A DNA stretch of 29,770 nucleotides, from IMG/VR virus record IMGVR_UViG_3300027659_000151, positions 1 through 29,770 of that record, one strand, 5' to 3'. The DNA comes from a virus. Position 1 is the first letter of the stretch, and every line of letters begins with the position of its first letter. Made by a program: the position numbers and the translations under genes. Shown one piece after another: positions 9,155 to 29,707 of this stretch. The notes beneath the pieces were generated by a model. The model was not told the DNA's origin and did no database searches. It worked only from the letters and a program-made list of their open reading frames with translations.

Positions 9155-9201
9155 TACACCCCGCTGGGCTCGAACCAGCAACCTTCGGTTCCGTAGACCG
9201 A
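9155..9201 (-). other. attP: attP core: 3' half of a tRNA-Arg(ACG)
   Basis: Read on the minus strand this is the anticodon arm (TCGGT, loop CTACGGA, ACCGA; anticodon ACG), a 5-nt variable loop, the T arm (GCTGG, loop TTCGAGC, CCAGC), then GGGGTGT and discriminator A. There is no CCA. The 5' half is absent: upstream bases make no D arm or matching acceptor strand. Phages that integrate into tRNA genes carry such a 3' segment so that the host gene is restored on insertion. It lies beside the integrase and an excisionase-like gene. It occurs once in this window, so the genome is in its unintegrated form. Confidence 0.85.
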
Positions 9202-9341
9202 TGCTGTACGCGAACCCGGCCAACGGTGCCGAGTGCCGGACTTTCCGGTTATTCCCACGAGTTGAAAAACGGATTTCCCTCTGTCTAGTGGGGGCAAGAT
9301 CCGCCGCTGGCAAGGCTGCCAACGGGGGAGTCGGACGGAGG

Positions 9342-21409: not shown

Positions 21410-22642
21410 TCAGTCGTCGACGACGAGCTTCGCCACGAAGCTGGCGTCGTGGTTGGCGATGCCCACTCGCTGGGTCCCGCGGAAGAGGACGCCGTCCTTC
21501 GCAAAGGCGGCATGCTCCGACGCTGCGACCTGGAGGCCGTTAGCCTTGTAGGCCACGGCGGTTGACATCGAGAAGTCACCGTAGACAGCCAGCGTCCCGG
21601 CCGGGAGGCCGAGGCACTTGTAGACCGGGCTGCCCATCACAACCGGGAGAACCCGGTCGCCGATCGTCGTCGACTGGGTCACGACTGAGGCCTTCATGAT
21701 GTGAGCCCAGCCGGCCGAGCTGACGACCCAGGCGGTGTTCATCGCCCGGGCGTCGACCTTGCCGACCAGCTCCGCGAGATCCACTGCGTCGTTGTCGACG
21801 CCCTGGGTCACGGTGTTGCCGGCGGCGATCTCGGAGACGAGACCGTCGATTCCCTTGCCAACGTCGCCCTGCAGCCAGACCGTGTCGATCTTCTTCGCGA
21901 TCGCGAGGCCGAAGCGATTCGCCACGGTCTGCGCGAGGTTCACGACTGCGGCCGAGTCGTTCACCAGCTCGTTAGAGATCTCGATCGTCCGGCCCATCTT
22001 GTGGAGCAGAATCTCGACCTTGTCGGTCGTCATCTCGTCGCCCGTGATGGTGTCGAGCTCGTCGAACCATTCGGCCTCGATCTCGCCGATCTTCGGGACG
22101 ACGATCGAATTCGAGCTCGTCTGGTAGCCGCTGGCGACCTGGAGGCCGACGGAGGCGTAGCCCAGGACGTCAATGAATCCGGCGTACAGTTCCGAGCTCA
22201 CCAGCTCCGAACCCTTGGCGTCGAAGTCGGGGCTCGATTGACCCATCGACCGATGTTCGCCGCGGGCGAGAGCCTGCAGGAACCGGCCCGCGTTGGCGGC
22301 AGCGTCCACGCTGCCGAAGCCGCGGAGGTTGTGCTGCTTGCCCGGCATCACATGGATCGCCGGCCCCTTACGCTTCTCGGCCTTCTCGACGTCCGTCCGG
22401 CTGTCGGTCGAGCTGGCGACCGCAGAGCGGAGGCTTTCGACTGCTGCAGCCTGGCGGGCCTCGAGCTCGTGCTGCTTCTTCAGCTCGACGGCGAGCTCTT
22501 CGGCGCGGGCGGTCGCCTGCAGGGTGTTGCCCTCGATTGTCCGCGCTTCAGCCTCATCGGCCGGAACCAAAAGGTTCAGGGAATCGAGCTCGGCCGTCAC
22601 CTTTGCGGCCTCGTCCTGCAGCTTGCGGCGAGCGATAGACAT
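21410..22642 (-). CDS. Major capsid protein, HK97 fold
   Basis: A 410-aa protein. Residues 1 to about 95 (RKLQDEAAKVTAELDSLNLL, LKKQHELEARQAAAVESLRS) are a coiled-coil delta domain that acts as scaffold and is cut off by the prohead protease. The rest is the HK97 shell domain: VSSELYAGFIDVLGYASVGL, NELVNDSAAVVNLAQTVANR, AKKIDTVWLQGD (E-loop and spine helix parts), IMKASVVTQSTTIGDRVLPV and the end HAAFAKDGVLFRGTQRVGIA. A GAGG lies eight bases before the ATG. The protease lies six genes upstream, separated by the unusual cassette. Confidence 0.93.
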   Translation of the reverse strand: MSIARRKLQDEAAKVTAELDSLNLLVPADEAEARTIEGNTLQATARAEELAVELKKQHELEARQAAAVESLRSAVASSTDSRTDVEKAEKRKGPAIHVMPGKQHNLRGFGSVDAAANAGRFLQALARGEHRSMGQSSPDFDAKGSELVSSELYAGFIDVLGYASVGLQVASGYQTSSNSIVVPKIGEIEAEWFDELDTITGDEMTTDKVEILLHKMGRTIEISNELVNDSAAVVNLAQTVANRFGLAIAKKIDTVWLQGDVGKGIDGLVSEIAAGNTVTQGVDNDAVDLAELVGKVDARAMNTAWVVSSAGWAHIMKASVVTQSTTIGDRVLPVVMGSPVYKCLGLPAGTLAVYGDFSMSTAVAYKANGLQVAASEHAAFAKDGVLFRGTQRVGIANHDASFVAKLVVDD

Positions 22643-22727: not shown

Positions 22728-23024
22728 CTAGGACGCTTTCCGACAGGTTCCGTCGGGGCATCCCTTCCCGCCCTTACACTTGCAGGACTGAGGGCAGGGG
22801 CAGGGCGTCCGGTGGCCGTCGCCGTGCGTGATGAAGCCGGCCCCCTTGCACTCGCCGCAGCACTTGCCCGGCAGCGGAGCCGGGGCCGGAGCCGGGCCGC
22901 TGTCGATCACGAGCGACGCCCGCGCCGCAGCCACGGCCGCCGCCGCCTTCGGGGCCTCGAGGCGGGTCGCCTGCGGATCAGACGACAGCCAGACGAGAAC
23001 GGAGATAATCCAGCGCCAGAGCAT
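22728..23024 (-). CDS. Small protein with N-terminal membrane segment and Cys-rich tail
   Basis: A 98-aa protein. MLWRWIISVLVWLSSD is a short signal or membrane anchor. An Ala/Pro-rich stalk follows, then CCGECKGAGFITHGDGHRTP and CPCPQSCKCKGGKGCPDGTC. Ten Cys in about 38 residues, with the CxxCxGxG unit, resemble the zinc-binding DnaJ centre. The domain should lie outside or at the inner membrane face. ATG overlaps the previous stop by one base (TAATG). Between peptidase and capsid it could be a spanin-like or envelope-interacting protein, which is not established. Confidence 0.65.
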   Translation of the reverse strand: MLWRWIISVLVWLSSDPQATRLEAPKAAAAVAAARASLVIDSGPAPAPAPLPGKCCGECKGAGFITHGDGHRTPCPCPQSCKCKGGKGCPDGTCRKAS

Positions 23025-23287
23025 TACCAGCCCTTTCCATGATCGACCACTTGATAGCCGTCGTCTCCGACCGGCGGAGCATGGACGAGATGCCGATCCG
23101 CCTGGGCCGCCGGGGGCTGCTCGGCGACCAGGGCGATCCAGAGCAGCGACTTCGCGGCCCGGGCGATCCAGCGGAGGACCGGCCGCTCCGGGGCCGGTGG
23201 GCCGGGCGGGCTCGAGGAGCCAGAGAACCAGTAGCCGACCGCGAATGCGGCGACCAAAACGTAGAGCGTCTTTCGGTCGAAAGTCAT
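23024..23287 (-). CDS. Small membrane protein next to the papain-like peptidase
   Basis: An 87-aa protein starting MTFDRKTLYVLVAAFAVGYW. One N-terminal membrane helix (about residues 7-19), a Pro-rich link (SSSPPGPPAPERP) and a second hydrophobic stretch (IARAAKSLLWIALVAEQ). The end is polar (DDGYQVVDHGKGW). Its ATG overlaps the peptidase stop by 4 nt (ATGA). A holin- or anchor-like partner of the peptidase is possible. Longer frames upstream are not used. Confidence 0.6.
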   Translation of the reverse strand: MTFDRKTLYVLVAAFAVGYWFSGSSSPPGPPAPERPVLRWIARAAKSLLWIALVAEQPPAAQADRHLVHAPPVGDDGYQVVDHGKGW

Positions 23288-24411
23288 CGGTCCTGCTCCT
23301 TCATCGTCAACGTCTCCACGGGGGGCGGGGCAAACCAATTGCCGTTATGTAGGTCGCGCCACTTGAAGCCTGTCTCCACTGATCCAATCGCGTAGGAGTC
23401 GCCCTGGGCGAGGATCCGCTCCGCGTCCGATCTCGAGATCCAGAAGGAGCCGTCCGGCTGGTCCGGTGGGAATTTCCCACCCGCGACGTAGTTGCCCCAG
23501 CTGTTGAGGACCAGCGCCCCGTCCCGCGGGCGTGACGTCCCCGGCGGGGCATTCTTGGCAAACCTCGTCGAGAGGATGCTCATCTGGTGCATCCATGTAC
23601 CAGAGGCGGCGCAGAATCCGTCGGCGTCGCGCGGGCCGCTGTTGAATCCCACCGAGCTGGCGATCGTCACCGGGAAACCGGAGCCGATCGCGGCGACCAG
23701 CTCCTCCCAGGTGCGGACCGCGACCACATGCCGGCAGGGGTGACGCTTGGCGACCTTGTCGAGCCGGCCCGCGTCGCCCTGCCCGCCGTTGCCGTAGGCC
23801 CCGTAGGCCTTCGCCCGGTCGGCAGAGTAGGTCGTGAGGTCGACCGTTTCGTATTGCTGGCGATAGACGACGCCCCAATCGCGGAGCCACTTCGCCGCGC
23901 CCCAGCCGGTCGCGCCGTCGCTCCATCCGCCGACGGGCGAGGTCCCGTCTCCGGACTTGCCGCGGCTCTCTACGCGGGCTCCGCCGTAGATGCTTTCAGT
24001 CGCCGGCATGAGCGGAGGCTCGGCCGCCTGCCCCAGTTCCCACGAGACGCTTTCCGCACAATAGACGGCATGAGCAGCGCCCCAGGCAATACAGTCGCCG
24101 ATCCCCTGCCGGCCGACGACGAACGGCTTTCCGTATCTCGCCCGGTGGGCCTTGTCCATCGAGCGGAAAAGGAACGTATCGACCTCGACGCTTTTCCGCA
24201 TGGCCTCGGCCCCGGCGTCGCGGAAGAGCGGCTGCGGCAGTTCCGCCAGGAAGTCGGCCACGCCCTGCGGGTCTGGCTGGTAGCCGAACCGTTCCCCGAC
24301 CACTTGGGTAGCGGCGGGGCGGGTGAACCACTCGAGCGCAAGAAGGAACGCGACGCCCAGGAGCAGGGCGGCAGCGACGATCCTCGCCGGGTGCCGGTCA
24401 GCGTGAAGCAT
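23284..24411 (-). CDS. Membrane-anchored papain-like (C1A-type) cysteine peptidase
   Basis: A 375-aa protein. Residues 9-28 (ARIVAAALLLGVAFLLALEW) are a signal anchor. The catalytic set is visible: Q102 and C107 in GRQGIGDCIAWG, a GWSDGATGWGAAKWLRDWGV region like the papain GCxGG...Gi part, H275 in GTWMHQMSI and N303 in LVLNSWGNYV, then GSFWISRSDAERIL. NSWG is the classic papain-family signature. The Q-to-C spacing is one shorter than in papain. The target is unknown: cell wall, a membrane protein or a virion protein. Start at 24411 is favoured; the longer frame begins with GTG at 24435. It sits between the prohead protease and the capsid with small membrane proteins on both sides. Confidence 0.8.
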   Translation of the reverse strand: MLHADRHPARIVAAALLLGVAFLLALEWFTRPAATQVVGERFGYQPDPQGVADFLAELPQPLFRDAGAEAMRKSVEVDTFLFRSMDKAHRARYGKPFVVGRQGIGDCIAWGAAHAVYCAESVSWELGQAAEPPLMPATESIYGGARVESRGKSGDGTSPVGGWSDGATGWGAAKWLRDWGVVYRQQYETVDLTTYSADRAKAYGAYGNGGQGDAGRLDKVAKRHPCRHVVAVRTWEELVAAIGSGFPVTIASSVGFNSGPRDADGFCAASGTWMHQMSILSTRFAKNAPPGTSRPRDGALVLNSWGNYVAGGKFPPDQPDGSFWISRSDAERILAQGDSYAIGSVETGFKWRDLHNGNWFAPPPVETLTMKEQDR

Positions 24412-24940
24412 CGGCGGCAGCCCTCGAGACGTCACGATAGGCGGCGATCCATCTCGCCCGCTGCTCCGGAGAGACCGGGCCGCCGGAGGTGCCGGCGTGT
24501 TGGTCGAGATAGGCCTTGATCGCGTCGCGGGCTCGCGGATGCTTCTCGCCCAGGCTCGCGCCCCGGCAGAGCAGGAGGCGGGCGCGGACCCGCAGCTCGT
24601 CGAACGAGACGCCCGTCTTCAGAAACGGCTCCGGCTGCATTCCGTCCCACTCGATCTCCCCGGCCAGCTCCTCGAGGAGGGCGGCAGTCGTCGCGGCATC
24701 GGCGGCCGCGTCGGGGCCGACGAACGTCCCGGCCAGCGTGAATTCCTCCGGGGCCGGCGGGGCCGGGGTCGGGGCATCCTGCCGGCCGGACGACCAGGAG
24801 ACGAGGGCCGCAGCCACCAGCGCGGCTGCGGCGATGTGCCGGCCGTCGACCTTCTGGATGTCGAAGGCCTTCGCATGCTCGAGGATCCACGGCCACGCCA
24901 GCGCCACGGCGGCGGCGACGATCAGGAGAACGGCTAGCAT
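24398..24940 (-). CDS. Membrane-anchored protein of the peptidase cassette
   Basis: A 180-aa protein. MLAVLLIVAAAVALAWPWIL and a second hydrophobic stretch HIAAAALVAAALVSW form two probable membrane helices. A Pro/Ala link (PTPAPPAPEE) leads to a helical domain (TAALLEELAGEIEWDGM, VSFDELRVRARLLLCRGASL, RARWIAAYRDVSRAAADA). The topology would place the domain on the outside or the inside depending on the ends. Its ATG overlaps the previous stop and its stop overlaps the peptidase start by 14 nt. Holin- or chaperone-like roles are guesses. Confidence 0.6.
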   Translation of the reverse strand: MLAVLLIVAAAVALAWPWILEHAKAFDIQKVDGRHIAAAALVAAALVSWSSGRQDAPTPAPPAPEEFTLAGTFVGPDAAADAATTAALLEELAGEIEWDGMQPEPFLKTGVSFDELRVRARLLLCRGASLGEKHPRARDAIKAYLDQHAGTSGGPVSPEQRARWIAAYRDVSRAAADASR

Positions 24941-25311
24941 TAAGCGACCCTCACCAGCGGCAGGAGTCCTTCGACGGCCCCGCTCGCCAGGGCGAGGACC
25001 AGAGACCGGACAGTCGGACGGACGAGCATATAGAGCGGGTAGACGTTCAGCGGGACCGCCTTGTCGGCGACCGTGTCGAAGAGGGCGGCGACCGCCTCGA
25101 GGGCGATCTCCTTCTTCTCGGCCCCGGACAGCGTCGACACTTGCTCGAGCGTGGCGATCGACAGCCGCAGGAGCGCGACCGTCAGCTCGCCGAACTCGCC
25201 CCATGTGATGCCGTCGCGGCTGGCCTCGCGGGCCGCCGCGATGAAGACCGTCACCCTTTCGGCGATCGTGAAATAGTGGGCGGCCGATTTTGTTGGAACG
25301 TCAGAGATCAT
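24940..25311 (-). CDS. Helical protein before the membrane cassette, 123 aa
   Basis: Not recognised by a named family. It starts MISDVPTKSAAHYFTIAERV and is nearly all alpha-helical: WGEFGELTVALLRLSIATLE, SGAEKKEIALEAVAALFDTV, then a more hydrophobic end (VRPTVRSLVLALASGAVEGL). I recall similar ends in proteins of marine and Planctomycetota-like phages without a role. The ATG overlaps the zinc-ribbon stop (ATGA), its stop overlaps the next ATG, and GGAGG lies upstream. A soluble or membrane-associated partner of the cassette. Confidence 0.6.
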   Translation of the reverse strand: MISDVPTKSAAHYFTIAERVTVFIAAAREASRDGITWGEFGELTVALLRLSIATLEQVSTLSGAEKKEIALEAVAALFDTVADKAVPLNVYPLYMLVRPTVRSLVLALASGAVEGLLPLVRVA

Positions 25312-25469
25312 TTTCCCCTCCTCCAGATTTGTTCCGCCGGGACGAACCGCCGCTCCCGCGCACTGCAGCTAATGCAGGCGAGGTACTGAAGCTGCTCCCG
25401 GCCGACGGATCGCGACGAGGCGACCCGCATCCGGGCGGAGCAGCGCTTGCACTTAGGGGCGGAGACCAT
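25308..25469 (-). CDS. Small zinc-ribbon protein, 53 aa
   Basis: Starts MVSAPKCKRCSARMRVASSR and has CKRC (C7, C10) and CISC (C32, C35), a typical zinc-ribbon spacing with about 21 residues between the pairs. The end is basic (PAEQIWRRGK). Its ATG lies inside the end of the protease gene in another frame (17-nt overlap), and its stop overlaps the next ATG as ATGA. Both edges therefore fit the operon and the gene is likely real. Short Cys4 proteins like this often bind nucleic acid or a partner protein. Confidence 0.72.
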   Translation of the reverse strand: MVSAPKCKRCSARMRVASSRSVGREQLQYLACISCSARERRFVPAEQIWRRGK

Positions 25470-26133
25470 TCGCGTAGATCCTCAGTCGTGCCGCGGCCGC
25501 TGCCGCCTGGACTTTCGGCGAGACGGCGGCGATACGCTTCTCGGCCGCCTGCTCCTGGACGTCGCGGATCTCGGTCGCGCTCAGGTTCTCTTGACGCCAC
25601 TTGTCGAGAGACCGGACGGCTACGCTCGTGGCGCTGCCGTAGGCGGCATGCGTGACTACGGAGACGTCATAGAGCCCAGAGAATTCGGTGATCGTCCGCG
25701 TGGTGTTGCCCTTGTCGTCCTGCTCCCACTTCTCGCCTTTTGCCGGATCCACGGTGAACGCGAAGGAACTTCCGAAAAGGTCACGACGACGGATCAGGGT
25801 AAGGACGTCCCGGCCGAGTTGGGTATCCGGCGGGTCGACCTCGTATCCGAGGCCGCGGTCGTCGGTCGACAGCCGCAGCGTCCCGGCCGAGGTCCGGCCG
25901 AGCGGCTGGCCTTCATGGTCGAAGAAGGCGACGACGTCGAGCTTCCGCTTCGAGAGGACGCGGTCGAAGGCCCCCGGCTGAATGATCTCCCGGAACCCTC
26001 CGAGGTCGAGCGAGAACTTCGAGTAGGCGGCGGCGAGGCCGCGGATCTTCGGAGTCTCCGCCTCCCGCTCCTCGACGACCAGGCCGTCGGCGACATCGTC
26101 GGCGATCGCCAGGAATCTACGCTCCAGATCCAT
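25453..26133 (-). CDS. HK97-family prohead protease
   Basis: A 226-aa protein. IRGLAAAYSKFS and FREIIQPGAFDRVL open the fold. The catalytic His is H73 in VAFFDHEGQPLGRT and the Ser is about S123 in LFGSSFAFTV. LYDVSVVTHAAYGSATSVAV is the conserved closing strand. The enzyme cuts the N-terminal delta domain of the capsid protein in the prohead and then itself. A GGAGG lies five bases before the ATG, which overlaps the portal end by 17 nt. The C-terminal ~50 residues form a charged helix, probably a capsid-docking part removed on maturation. Confidence 0.93.
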   Translation of the reverse strand: MDLERRFLAIADDVADGLVVEEREAETPKIRGLAAAYSKFSLDLGGFREIIQPGAFDRVLSKRKLDVVAFFDHEGQPLGRTSAGTLRLSTDDRGLGYEVDPPDTQLGRDVLTLIRRRDLFGSSFAFTVDPAKGEKWEQDDKGNTTRTITEFSGLYDVSVVTHAAYGSATSVAVRSLDKWRQENLSATEIRDVQEQAAEKRIAAVSPKVQAAAAAARLRIYANGLRP

Positions 26134-27655: not shown

Positions 27656-29289
27656 ATCTTGATTAGGTTCCAGTTGTCCGCGCCGGTCTCGTCTGATGTG
27701 CTCGCCAGGACTAGGCCGTTCACGAGGGCGACGATCGGGTCGATCTTCTCTGAGCTCTTCACCTTGTCCGGCTTGATTGACCCGGTCGAATCGCTGTAGA
27801 CGCAAACATGATTAGCGGCCCAGGCTGCCACGGGGTCTCCGCCCGTCCGGAGCTTCCCTTCGACGACCAGCGCCTCGAGCAGCTTCGACGCCGAATTCAG
27901 AGTCCCTGTTTTCTGAGAGATAGACTGGACTTCGAGATCGTGCCGCTGAAGTAGGGTCGCGAGGGAGCCCACGTTCCACGGGTCAGCGCCCACGCTTACG
28001 ATCCGGTGCCGCTCGGAAAACTCCACGATGTCGCGGGCGACCGCCTCATGGTCGAGGCGAGCCCCGTCGGTGACGGTGACGTAGCCTTGCTTGATCCATT
28101 GGGAGTATGGGATCCCTTCCCGCTCGCGGTCGGGGATCGTCGCCTCCGGGACCCAATACTTCCACTGCGCGAAGTAGGTCCCGTCGCGCTCCTTAAAGAC
28201 GAACGCGGCGGCCGTCATGTCGAGGTTGCTCGCCAAGTCGATGCCGACCCAGCAGGGCCGGCCCTCCGTCGGCTCGAGCGGCCCGGCATCGCAGGCGGCC
28301 CACTGGCCGGGATCTTTGAACCAGCGGTTGTCTCCCTGGACCCAGACGCCGAGCCGGTAGCGGGCGAACGCTGCCCACTTCCGCGGATTGGTGAGACTAT
28401 CGGCGTAGTCGCTCGCGAAGTCCTTCTCTGAGATCGTGGTCCCGAGCGACGGATTCGCCTGCCGCCAGACGTTGGGATCGGAGTAGTCGCTGCCCTCCCG
28501 GGCCTCGTAGACGCGGCCGAAAAATGTCGGGTTAGCCTCCGGCGTTTTCTCCACGAGCTTCGCGTCTTGATACCACTGCCAGCCAATGCCGTTCCGGTTC
28601 TCGCCGGCCGTCGAGATCGCGACGACCAGCGGCGAGGCTCGCGCCGCCCCGGCGTAGGTGAGGGCCTGAACGAGGTCCGGCTTTCGGTGGGCGTGCAGCT
28701 CGTCGACGACGACGGCCGAGGCGTCGATACCTTCCGCCCGCCAGGAGTCGGCGGCGAGGCATGTATAGCGCGAGTTGGTTTCCCTGTGGACGATCGTGCT
28801 CCGCGAGTCGATCACCTCGAGGGCCTTCGACAGCTGCGGGTTAGCGCGGACCGCCGAGGCTACAGAGCGGTATATGATGCCCGCCTGGATACGATCGACC
28901 GCGGCCCCGTAGACGGCGGCCCCCGGCTCCTGGTCGGCGAGCATGTGATAGAGAACCAGGGCAGCCATCATGCTGCTCTTCCCGTTCTTTTTAGAAACGT
29001 AGATGGCCGCCCGCCGGTAGCGGCGCAGTCCGTCGGAGTCGACCCAGCCATAGAGCGGCTCGAGGATCTCCTTCTTCTGCCACTCCATGAGCTTCATCGG
29101 CTTCCCGGCGAACTTGCGTCCCGAGGTCATGGTGACGAACGACTCGACGAACCGGATCACGCGGTCGGCCCGCTCCTGCTCGAAGGTGTAGCCGGCGACA
29201 TACTCCGGCCGCCGTTTCCAGGCTGGGCCGGCCGCCCGCTTACGCGGTGCCTTCGATGAAGGCGCGGAGGTCGTCTTTCGTTTCGCCAT
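27652..29289 (-). CDS. terL: Terminase large subunit (HK97-like)
   Basis: A 545-aa protein. Walker A at residues 99-106 (SKKNGKSS), Walker B at 192-198 (AVVVDEL, D196 and E197), coupling motif AISTAGEN (about 224-231). The C-terminal nuclease has D351 in GIDLASNLDM and a late acid in EKIDPIVALVNGL. It is the motor that cuts and packages DNA. It overlaps the small subunit by 50 nt and the portal by 4 nt. The N-terminus is basic (MAKRKTTSAPSSKAPRKRAA). Confidence 0.95.
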   Translation of the reverse strand: MAKRKTTSAPSSKAPRKRAAGPAWKRRPEYVAGYTFEQERADRVIRFVESFVTMTSGRKFAGKPMKLMEWQKKEILEPLYGWVDSDGLRRYRRAAIYVSKKNGKSSMMAALVLYHMLADQEPGAAVYGAAVDRIQAGIIYRSVASAVRANPQLSKALEVIDSRSTIVHRETNSRYTCLAADSWRAEGIDASAVVVDELHAHRKPDLVQALTYAGAARASPLVVAISTAGENRNGIGWQWYQDAKLVEKTPEANPTFFGRVYEAREGSDYSDPNVWRQANPSLGTTISEKDFASDYADSLTNPRKWAAFARYRLGVWVQGDNRWFKDPGQWAACDAGPLEPTEGRPCWVGIDLASNLDMTAAAFVFKERDGTYFAQWKYWVPEATIPDREREGIPYSQWIKQGYVTVTDGARLDHEAVARDIVEFSERHRIVSVGADPWNVGSLATLLQRHDLEVQSISQKTGTLNSASKLLEALVVEGKLRTGGDPVAAWAANHVCVYSDSTGSIKPDKVKSSEKIDPIVALVNGLVLASTSDETGADNWNLIKI

Positions 29290-29707
29290 GCTCGACGCGG
29301 ATCGCGGTCCTCGAGGAAGGGGTCAATCCAAACTCCCGCTCTATCTGCAGGAGGTCGGCGTGGTATCGGCTGACGAGATTTGCCTCCGGCAGTTGGACGC
29401 GGCGGCCGCTGCCGATCTCCGCGGACAGGCCGTTAGCCTTCAGCTCGGCGTAGGCCAGGATGTAGAGCTCCCAGGCAATGCAGTAGCGCTGCAGCGTCAC
29501 GCGGTCGGCATCGGTGAAGACCTTCATCGCCGCCAGCTGCGGGGCGCGAAGCGTCCACATCTCGAGGGCGTTGCCGTCGAGCATCGGCGGCGCGGCGAGC
29601 GATGCCTCGCCCGGCTTCGGCTCGAGCGCGGCGAGCGCCGCGAGATTTTCCTTCCGAGGATTGCCCCGCAGGATTTTCAACGCGGTCGGCTGCGGCTTGC
29701 GTCCCAT
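29240..29707 (-). CDS. terS: Terminase small subunit, P27 family
   Basis: A 155-aa protein. MGRKPQPTALKILRGNPRKE and FGLTPSSRTAIRVEHGETKD are the hallmark ends of P27/Terminase_4 proteins. The middle is helical (LQRYCIAWELYILAYAELKA, LPEANLVSRYHADLLQIERE). It recognises the packaging site and loads the large subunit. An AAAGG lies eight bases before the ATG. It is the first gene from the right end. In cos phages with an HNH protein, that HNH gene is next to this one; here it is at the other window end. Confidence 0.92.
   Translation of the reverse strand: MGRKPQPTALKILRGNPRKENLAALAALEPKPGEASLAAPPMLDGNALEMWTLRAPQLAAMKVFTDADRVTLQRYCIAWELYILAYAELKANGLSAEIGSGRRVQLPEANLVSRYHADLLQIEREFGLTPSSRTAIRVEHGETKDDLRAFIEGTA

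Follow-up and report, generated by a model that had tools for sequence, protein, structure and literature searches.

Between the prohead protease and capsid genes of the virus record IMGVR_UViG_3300027659_000151 lies a block of overlapping genes that we interpret as a self-contained, envelope-targeted protease cassette of Planctomycetota phages. It most likely serves as a lysis (envelope-breach) module, a role that we propose with about as much doubt as conviction. Five of its six genes (hel, tm2, pap, tms, and cys) form a well-supported unit, and the cassette is common to hundreds of Planctomycetota phages. The finding is larger than first described; the unit is found at several genomic positions and is not peculiar to the gap between protease and capsid, where the original prediction had located it.

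Gene layout and conservation of the five-gene unit

The window, by which we mean the whole stretch of DNA analyzed, is an IMG/VR virus record of 29,770 bases that has no end repeats, and its genes lie on the minus strand. Read on that strand, genes for the terminase small and large subunits, a portal, and an S78 prohead protease (positions 25453 to 26133; PF04586, 1.9e-36) are followed by the six-gene block and then by a gene for an HK97-type major capsid protein (21410 to 22642; PF05065, 8.3e-26). Connector/head-completion genes, a tail chaperone, a tape measure gene, more tail genes, and then replication/nuclease genes lie 3′ of the capsid gene. The six overlapping genes were confirmed between protease and capsid in the order znr, hel, tm2, pap, tms, and cys, all on the minus strand, with successive overlaps of 17, 4, 1, 14, 4, and 1 nt from the S78 protease through cys and a gap of 85 nt between cys and the capsid gene. 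Searches of Pfam and PHROGs with the six block proteins returned no significant family, and the five core proteins are accordingly undescribed with respect to both collections, as had been proposed. Elsewhere in the window, a tRNA-Arg (acg) gene (9155 to 9229, minus strand) overlaps a long open frame. An HNH endonuclease gene and a terminase-small-subunit/ATPase-like gene (125 to 831 and 29240 to 29707) lie at the window ends, opposite the terminase genes; given these genes at its ends, the record (29.8 kb) may represent a permuted genome that is almost complete.

When related phages were searched for the same gene set and order, the five genes clearly co-occurred. Relatives confirmed in IMG/VR numbered 206 for pap, 338 for tm2, and 490 for hel. 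All five genes, in the order hel-tm2-pap-tms-cys, were present in 92 of the 95 distinct viral pap loci with enough flanking sequence, and the other three were without a recognizable hel but otherwise complete; these 95 loci are not all independent, as the first set of pap proteins fell into 28 groups at 88% identity. The proposal that the genes form one system therefore holds for the five-gene core, which is kept as a unit. It does not extend to the zinc ribbon: znr (25308 to 25469), an accessory open reading frame for a 53-aa zinc-ribbon-like protein with four Cys residues and a subthreshold Zn_ribbon match (0.044), is found in relatives only beside the protease, that is, only in the head-located version of the cassette. 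A chance run of unrelated genes was also considered and is ruled out by the retained order and by the alignment of each protein with its relatives.

Proteins of the cassette and its second version

The 375-aa product of pap (23284 to 24411) aligned over its full length with relatives at 55 to 100% identity. Cys107, His275, and Asn303, the last within an NSWG motif, follow the papain order and are invariant across 27 diverse members, and an N-terminal membrane helix (residues 8 to 30) precedes the protease domain. An AlphaFold2 model (mean pLDDT, 81.6) had xylellain as its top match both in Foldseek (7.4e-11) and in VIA-align (Z, 22.6 over 243 residues; rmsd, 2.8); in the latter comparison, cathepsins and papain scored Z values of 17 to 20 and the surface-layer-associated protease Cwp84 scored 18.3. 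Identity to the nearest solved structure is about 21%, and neither a sequence search of the PDB nor a tblastn search of 50,697 phage records returned a match to pap. The earlier description of the peptidase as papain-like is borne out by the C1A fold and the Cys/His/Asn triad. By modeled fold and motif, pap is a C1A-type protease with predicted activity. It shares fold, triad, and NSWG motif with known C1A proteases such as xylellain, cathepsins, and Cwp84 but differs from them in being phage encoded, in its N-terminal membrane helix, and in its fixed company of four other genes.

The first core gene, hel (24940 to 25311), encodes a 123-aa helical protein, candidate membrane-active, with a C-terminal hydrophobic segment (residues 104 to 122). 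By hydropathy, 25 of 27 aligned members have at least one TM-like segment; hel had no match among holin families. The 180-aa product of tm2 (24398 to 24940) consists of two N-terminal helices (residues 2 to 25 and 33 to 51), a Pro-rich linker, and a helical domain, and its AlphaFold2 model (pLDDT, 83.0) matched no PDB fold under an E value of 1. A distant tm2 homologue (locus L096) has a lipobox in place of the helices. The 87-aa tms protein (23024 to 23287) has a weak N-terminal hydrophobic helix, a conserved RPVLRWIARAAKSLLWIA segment, and a C-terminal HGxGW; its designation as a small membrane protein fits 23 of 28 members, which pass the hydropathy threshold, but not the window copy, which falls below it. 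In the 98-aa, Cys-rich cys protein (22728 to 23024), alignment and motif counts identified a CxxCxGxG-type cluster and a C-terminal CPDGxC. The suggestion that cys is anchored fared poorly for the close relatives, with a strong 19-residue hydrophobic segment in none of 29 members, and better for distant homologues of this fifth gene, which carry a lipobox (L096 and L100) or a signal peptide (L095).

Pfam found no thioredoxin domain in the window copy of cys. In contrast, the fifth gene matched Thioredoxin_7 (7.5e-8 to 5.5e-7) in four papain cassettes from Planctomycetota genomes (L090, L092, L093, and L095), and that of L101 is lipoprotein-like, with a Cys cluster and a PF00085 match at 5.2e-10. 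The fifth gene of L096 combines a lipobox, a Cys cluster, and a CGPC stretch, with no Pfam match. The fifth genes of the Planctomycetota-genome cassettes thus resemble exported thioredoxins in having a WCPxC-site domain and a signal peptide or lipoprotein-like character, whereas those of the window and most viral relatives have the Cys cluster only.

Ten loci keep hel but continue with a different set of genes, cassette B, instead of tm2-pap-tms-cys (for example, L204:6371-9526, L220:5502-8586, L234:6371-9498, and L268:5600-8671). The first products of cassette B are an 88-aa protein, an 84-aa one-helix protein, and a ~124-aa exported-looking protein (v124), which is thioredoxin-like by eye only, with Pfam silent. 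Next comes pap2 (~288 aa), in which a cysteine-peptidase motif is possible. Its Q..C, H, and DS motifs occur in an order that hints at a second papain; a profile comparison with pap was not significant, Pfam was silent, and pap2 matched no PDB sequence. Cassette B also encodes a ~254-aa protein with a signal peptide, a cys-like Cys cluster, a trypsin-like domain (PF13365, 6.6e-21), and a CxDGRC end like that of cys, followed by two small membrane-type proteins. Cassette B thus has a trypsin-like serine protease with a similar Cys cluster, a type of enzyme that is absent from the window and not homologous to pap. Taken together, cassette B and the thioredoxin-domain fifth genes indicate that a protease cassette occupies the slot in both versions and that its Cys-cluster partner reappears together with a redox or a protease domain.

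Genomic positions and hosts

Prohead protease and capsid genes are adjacent as a rule in phages generally, and the original prediction treated the window as a departure from that rule. The statement stands as general phage knowledge but not for this capsid lineage: wherever the contig includes both genes (26 loci), a cassette lies between them (22 with the papain version, cassette A, and 4 with cassette B). Relatives selected by their capsid gene, with more than 700 nt upstream, comprised 55 loci, 48 with cassette A and 6 with cassette B (L278, L282 to L285, and L313, partly the same contigs as the ten above); the remaining one (L327) is uninformative, as it starts inside an extra gene that in L010 is placed between cys and the capsid gene. 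A second selection, by a tail gene from phages whose head genes are unrelated, gave 21 loci with more than 8.5 kb downstream, of which 20 contained the cassette or at least hel; in L406, pap lies further along the contig. Two shorter loci (L379 and L415), in which the cassette was not seen, have contigs that stop 6 to 8 kb downstream, too short to decide. Since selection by either capsid or tail gene recovers the cassette wherever sequence suffices, it behaves as indispensable rather than optional.

Four positions were found. In the window lineage the cassette lies between protease and capsid. In L106 and L110 to L111, phages with lambda-type portals, GpA-type terminases, and a different capsid family, it follows the tail genes, and a tyrosine integrase gene lies beyond it on the other strand. 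In Blastopirellula marina DSM 3645 (L090) it directly precedes the terminase and portal genes, and in L062, a 59.9-kb contig, it lies not with structural genes but among replication-type genes, upstream of a sigma-factor-like gene (by eye). Two further features were observed near the cassette. Possibly related ~228-aa beta-rich proteins, recognized by eye, are encoded right after it in L010 (7302 to 7988, between cys and the capsid gene) and L204 (9888 to 10574), and the S78 prohead protease of L268 (4105 to 5088) has a C-terminal extension resembling a HAD-type phosphatase domain by eye (ISLDFDGTF).

Matches in bacterial genomes came from Blastopirellula marina, Planctomycetaceae and Planctomycetota MAGs, and one unclassified MAG, with 12 of 392 Planctomycetota genomes containing a match. 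One further match lies on a contig of 6.2 kb (L091) that carries a capsid gene of the window type; this contig belongs to a MAG labeled Alphaproteobacteria and is suspected to be misbinned. Judged from these relatives, Planctomycetota is well supported as the host phylum.

Proposed envelope breach and competing explanations

The original prediction noted no classical endolysin or holin elsewhere in the window, and family searches likewise found none, nor a clear pair of the two. Amidase_2, Phage_lysozyme, SLT, M23, NlpC/P60, and M15_3 matched nothing in the window or in any of nine relatives, in searches that covered curated families and possibly incomplete virus records, such that a novel hydrolase could sit among the unnamed genes; positive-control genomes gave matches. 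The other window genes matched 13 Pfam families, none of them lytic. Near distant pap homologues, proteins that combine one helix with a coiled coil were observed (L130:10548-10880 and L098:919-1413), the second with a weak, nonsignificant Rz-like spanin score (0.019). Literature searches on planctomycete phage lysis turned up nothing relevant.

Under the lysis reading, hel, through its C-terminal hydrophobic segment, and tms would first act on the inner membrane. Anchored by its N-terminal helix, pap would then place its C1A domain in the periplasm and cut envelope proteins. The cys protein may be exported for thiol or metal chemistry and, given the association with thioredoxin domains in its counterparts, could maintain the protease thiol in its reduced state or break disulfides in a cystine-rich envelope, while tm2 might put its helical domain into the periplasm as a scaffold or bridge. 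The protease would substitute for, or add to, a murein hydrolase. The planctomycete wall has been reported to consist of protein with a high proline and cysteine content, stabilized by disulfides (PMC3035269), which we count in favor of lysis. Planctomycetes also have lysozyme-sensitive peptidoglycan (PMC4432640), and the protease may therefore complement peptidoglycan breakage instead of replacing it.

Several further observations count toward lysis: conservation as a unit, the tail/integrase border position in phages with other head genes, export signals in homologues, the C1A fold and triad, the absence of the six lysin families, the thioredoxin-domain partner, and the filling of the same slot by cassette B with its exported trypsin-like protease. 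Like holin/endolysin/spanin cassettes, the block is compact, combines small membrane proteins with one exported enzyme, often lies at the end of the late genes, is kept as a unit, and is exchangeable between phages. It differs from them in its C1A protease in place of a murein hydrolase, its extra thiol/thioredoxin partner, and its lack of a recognized holin or spanin. Papain proteases are not murein hydrolases, the protease/capsid gap is an unusual place for lysis genes, and the block of L062 lies among replication-type genes; these points, together with the failure to identify a holin in the cassette or to match hel to holin families, weigh against lysis. With neither a recognized murein hydrolase nor an identified holin, the cassette is lysis-like but not classical.

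The alternative originally offered beside lysis was a virion-linked role, in which particle-borne proteases remove proteins of the surface or envelope during infection and, in this lineage, the location next to the capsid gene is a sign of coassembly. The location throughout one capsid lineage and the structural similarity of pap to Cwp84 are consistent with it. Membrane helices, or a lipobox or signal peptide in homologues, would be unusual for tailed-phage virions, and elsewhere the block lies at the tail/integrase border or ahead of the terminase. Since that border position recurs in many relatives and homologues carry export signals, we favor lysis as the best of several readings and consider virion entry unlikely. 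It seems to us improbable, too, that the proteins form a protease complex in the envelope and modify the cell surface for superinfection exclusion, host takeover, or lysogenic conversion; the envelope-type proteins, the proximity to integrase in temperate relatives, and the capacity of proteases to destroy receptors would suit it, but unlike typical optional morons the cassette occurs in every member that could be tested from two lineages whose head genes differ, and in the window its genes overlap within a late head operon.

Papain-like folds include murein peptidases (CHAP and NlpC/P60 domains), and no other hydrolase was found, so pap might use a papain-type scaffold to cleave peptidoglycan, as part of an ordinary endolysin/holin set that has diverged beyond recognition. 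Among the structural matches listed, however, the best are C1A proteases and no CHAP or NlpC/P60 chain appears. In addition, pap has the Asn-Ser-Trp-Gly motif of C1A, and the NlpC/P60 Pfam model was silent, making this reading quite improbable. A module for nonlytic, chronic particle release through the envelope is very unlikely given the standard tailed-phage head and tail genes of the window and its relatives, although the planctomycete phage Phage-ZRK32 is reported to be released without host lysis (PMC10945688), a precedent whose link to the cassette is conjectural.

Even if lysis is the wrong reading, a five-gene block is present in hundreds of phages, with proteins outside Pfam and PHROGs families, and the cassette can be tested in a cultured lysogen, Blastopirellula marina DSM 3645. 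More tentatively, planctomycete phages may breach their hosts with a protease and thiol-redox module rather than a peptidoglycan hydrolase; such a module would suit an envelope rich in protein and linked by disulfides and would exist in two interchangeable versions in one slot (papain type with a Cys-cluster or thioredoxin partner and trypsin type). If true, this would provide enzymatic probes of the planctomycete envelope and would represent phage exit in which no recognized murein hydrolase takes part; what the envelope of this phylum is made of has been a matter of long dispute.
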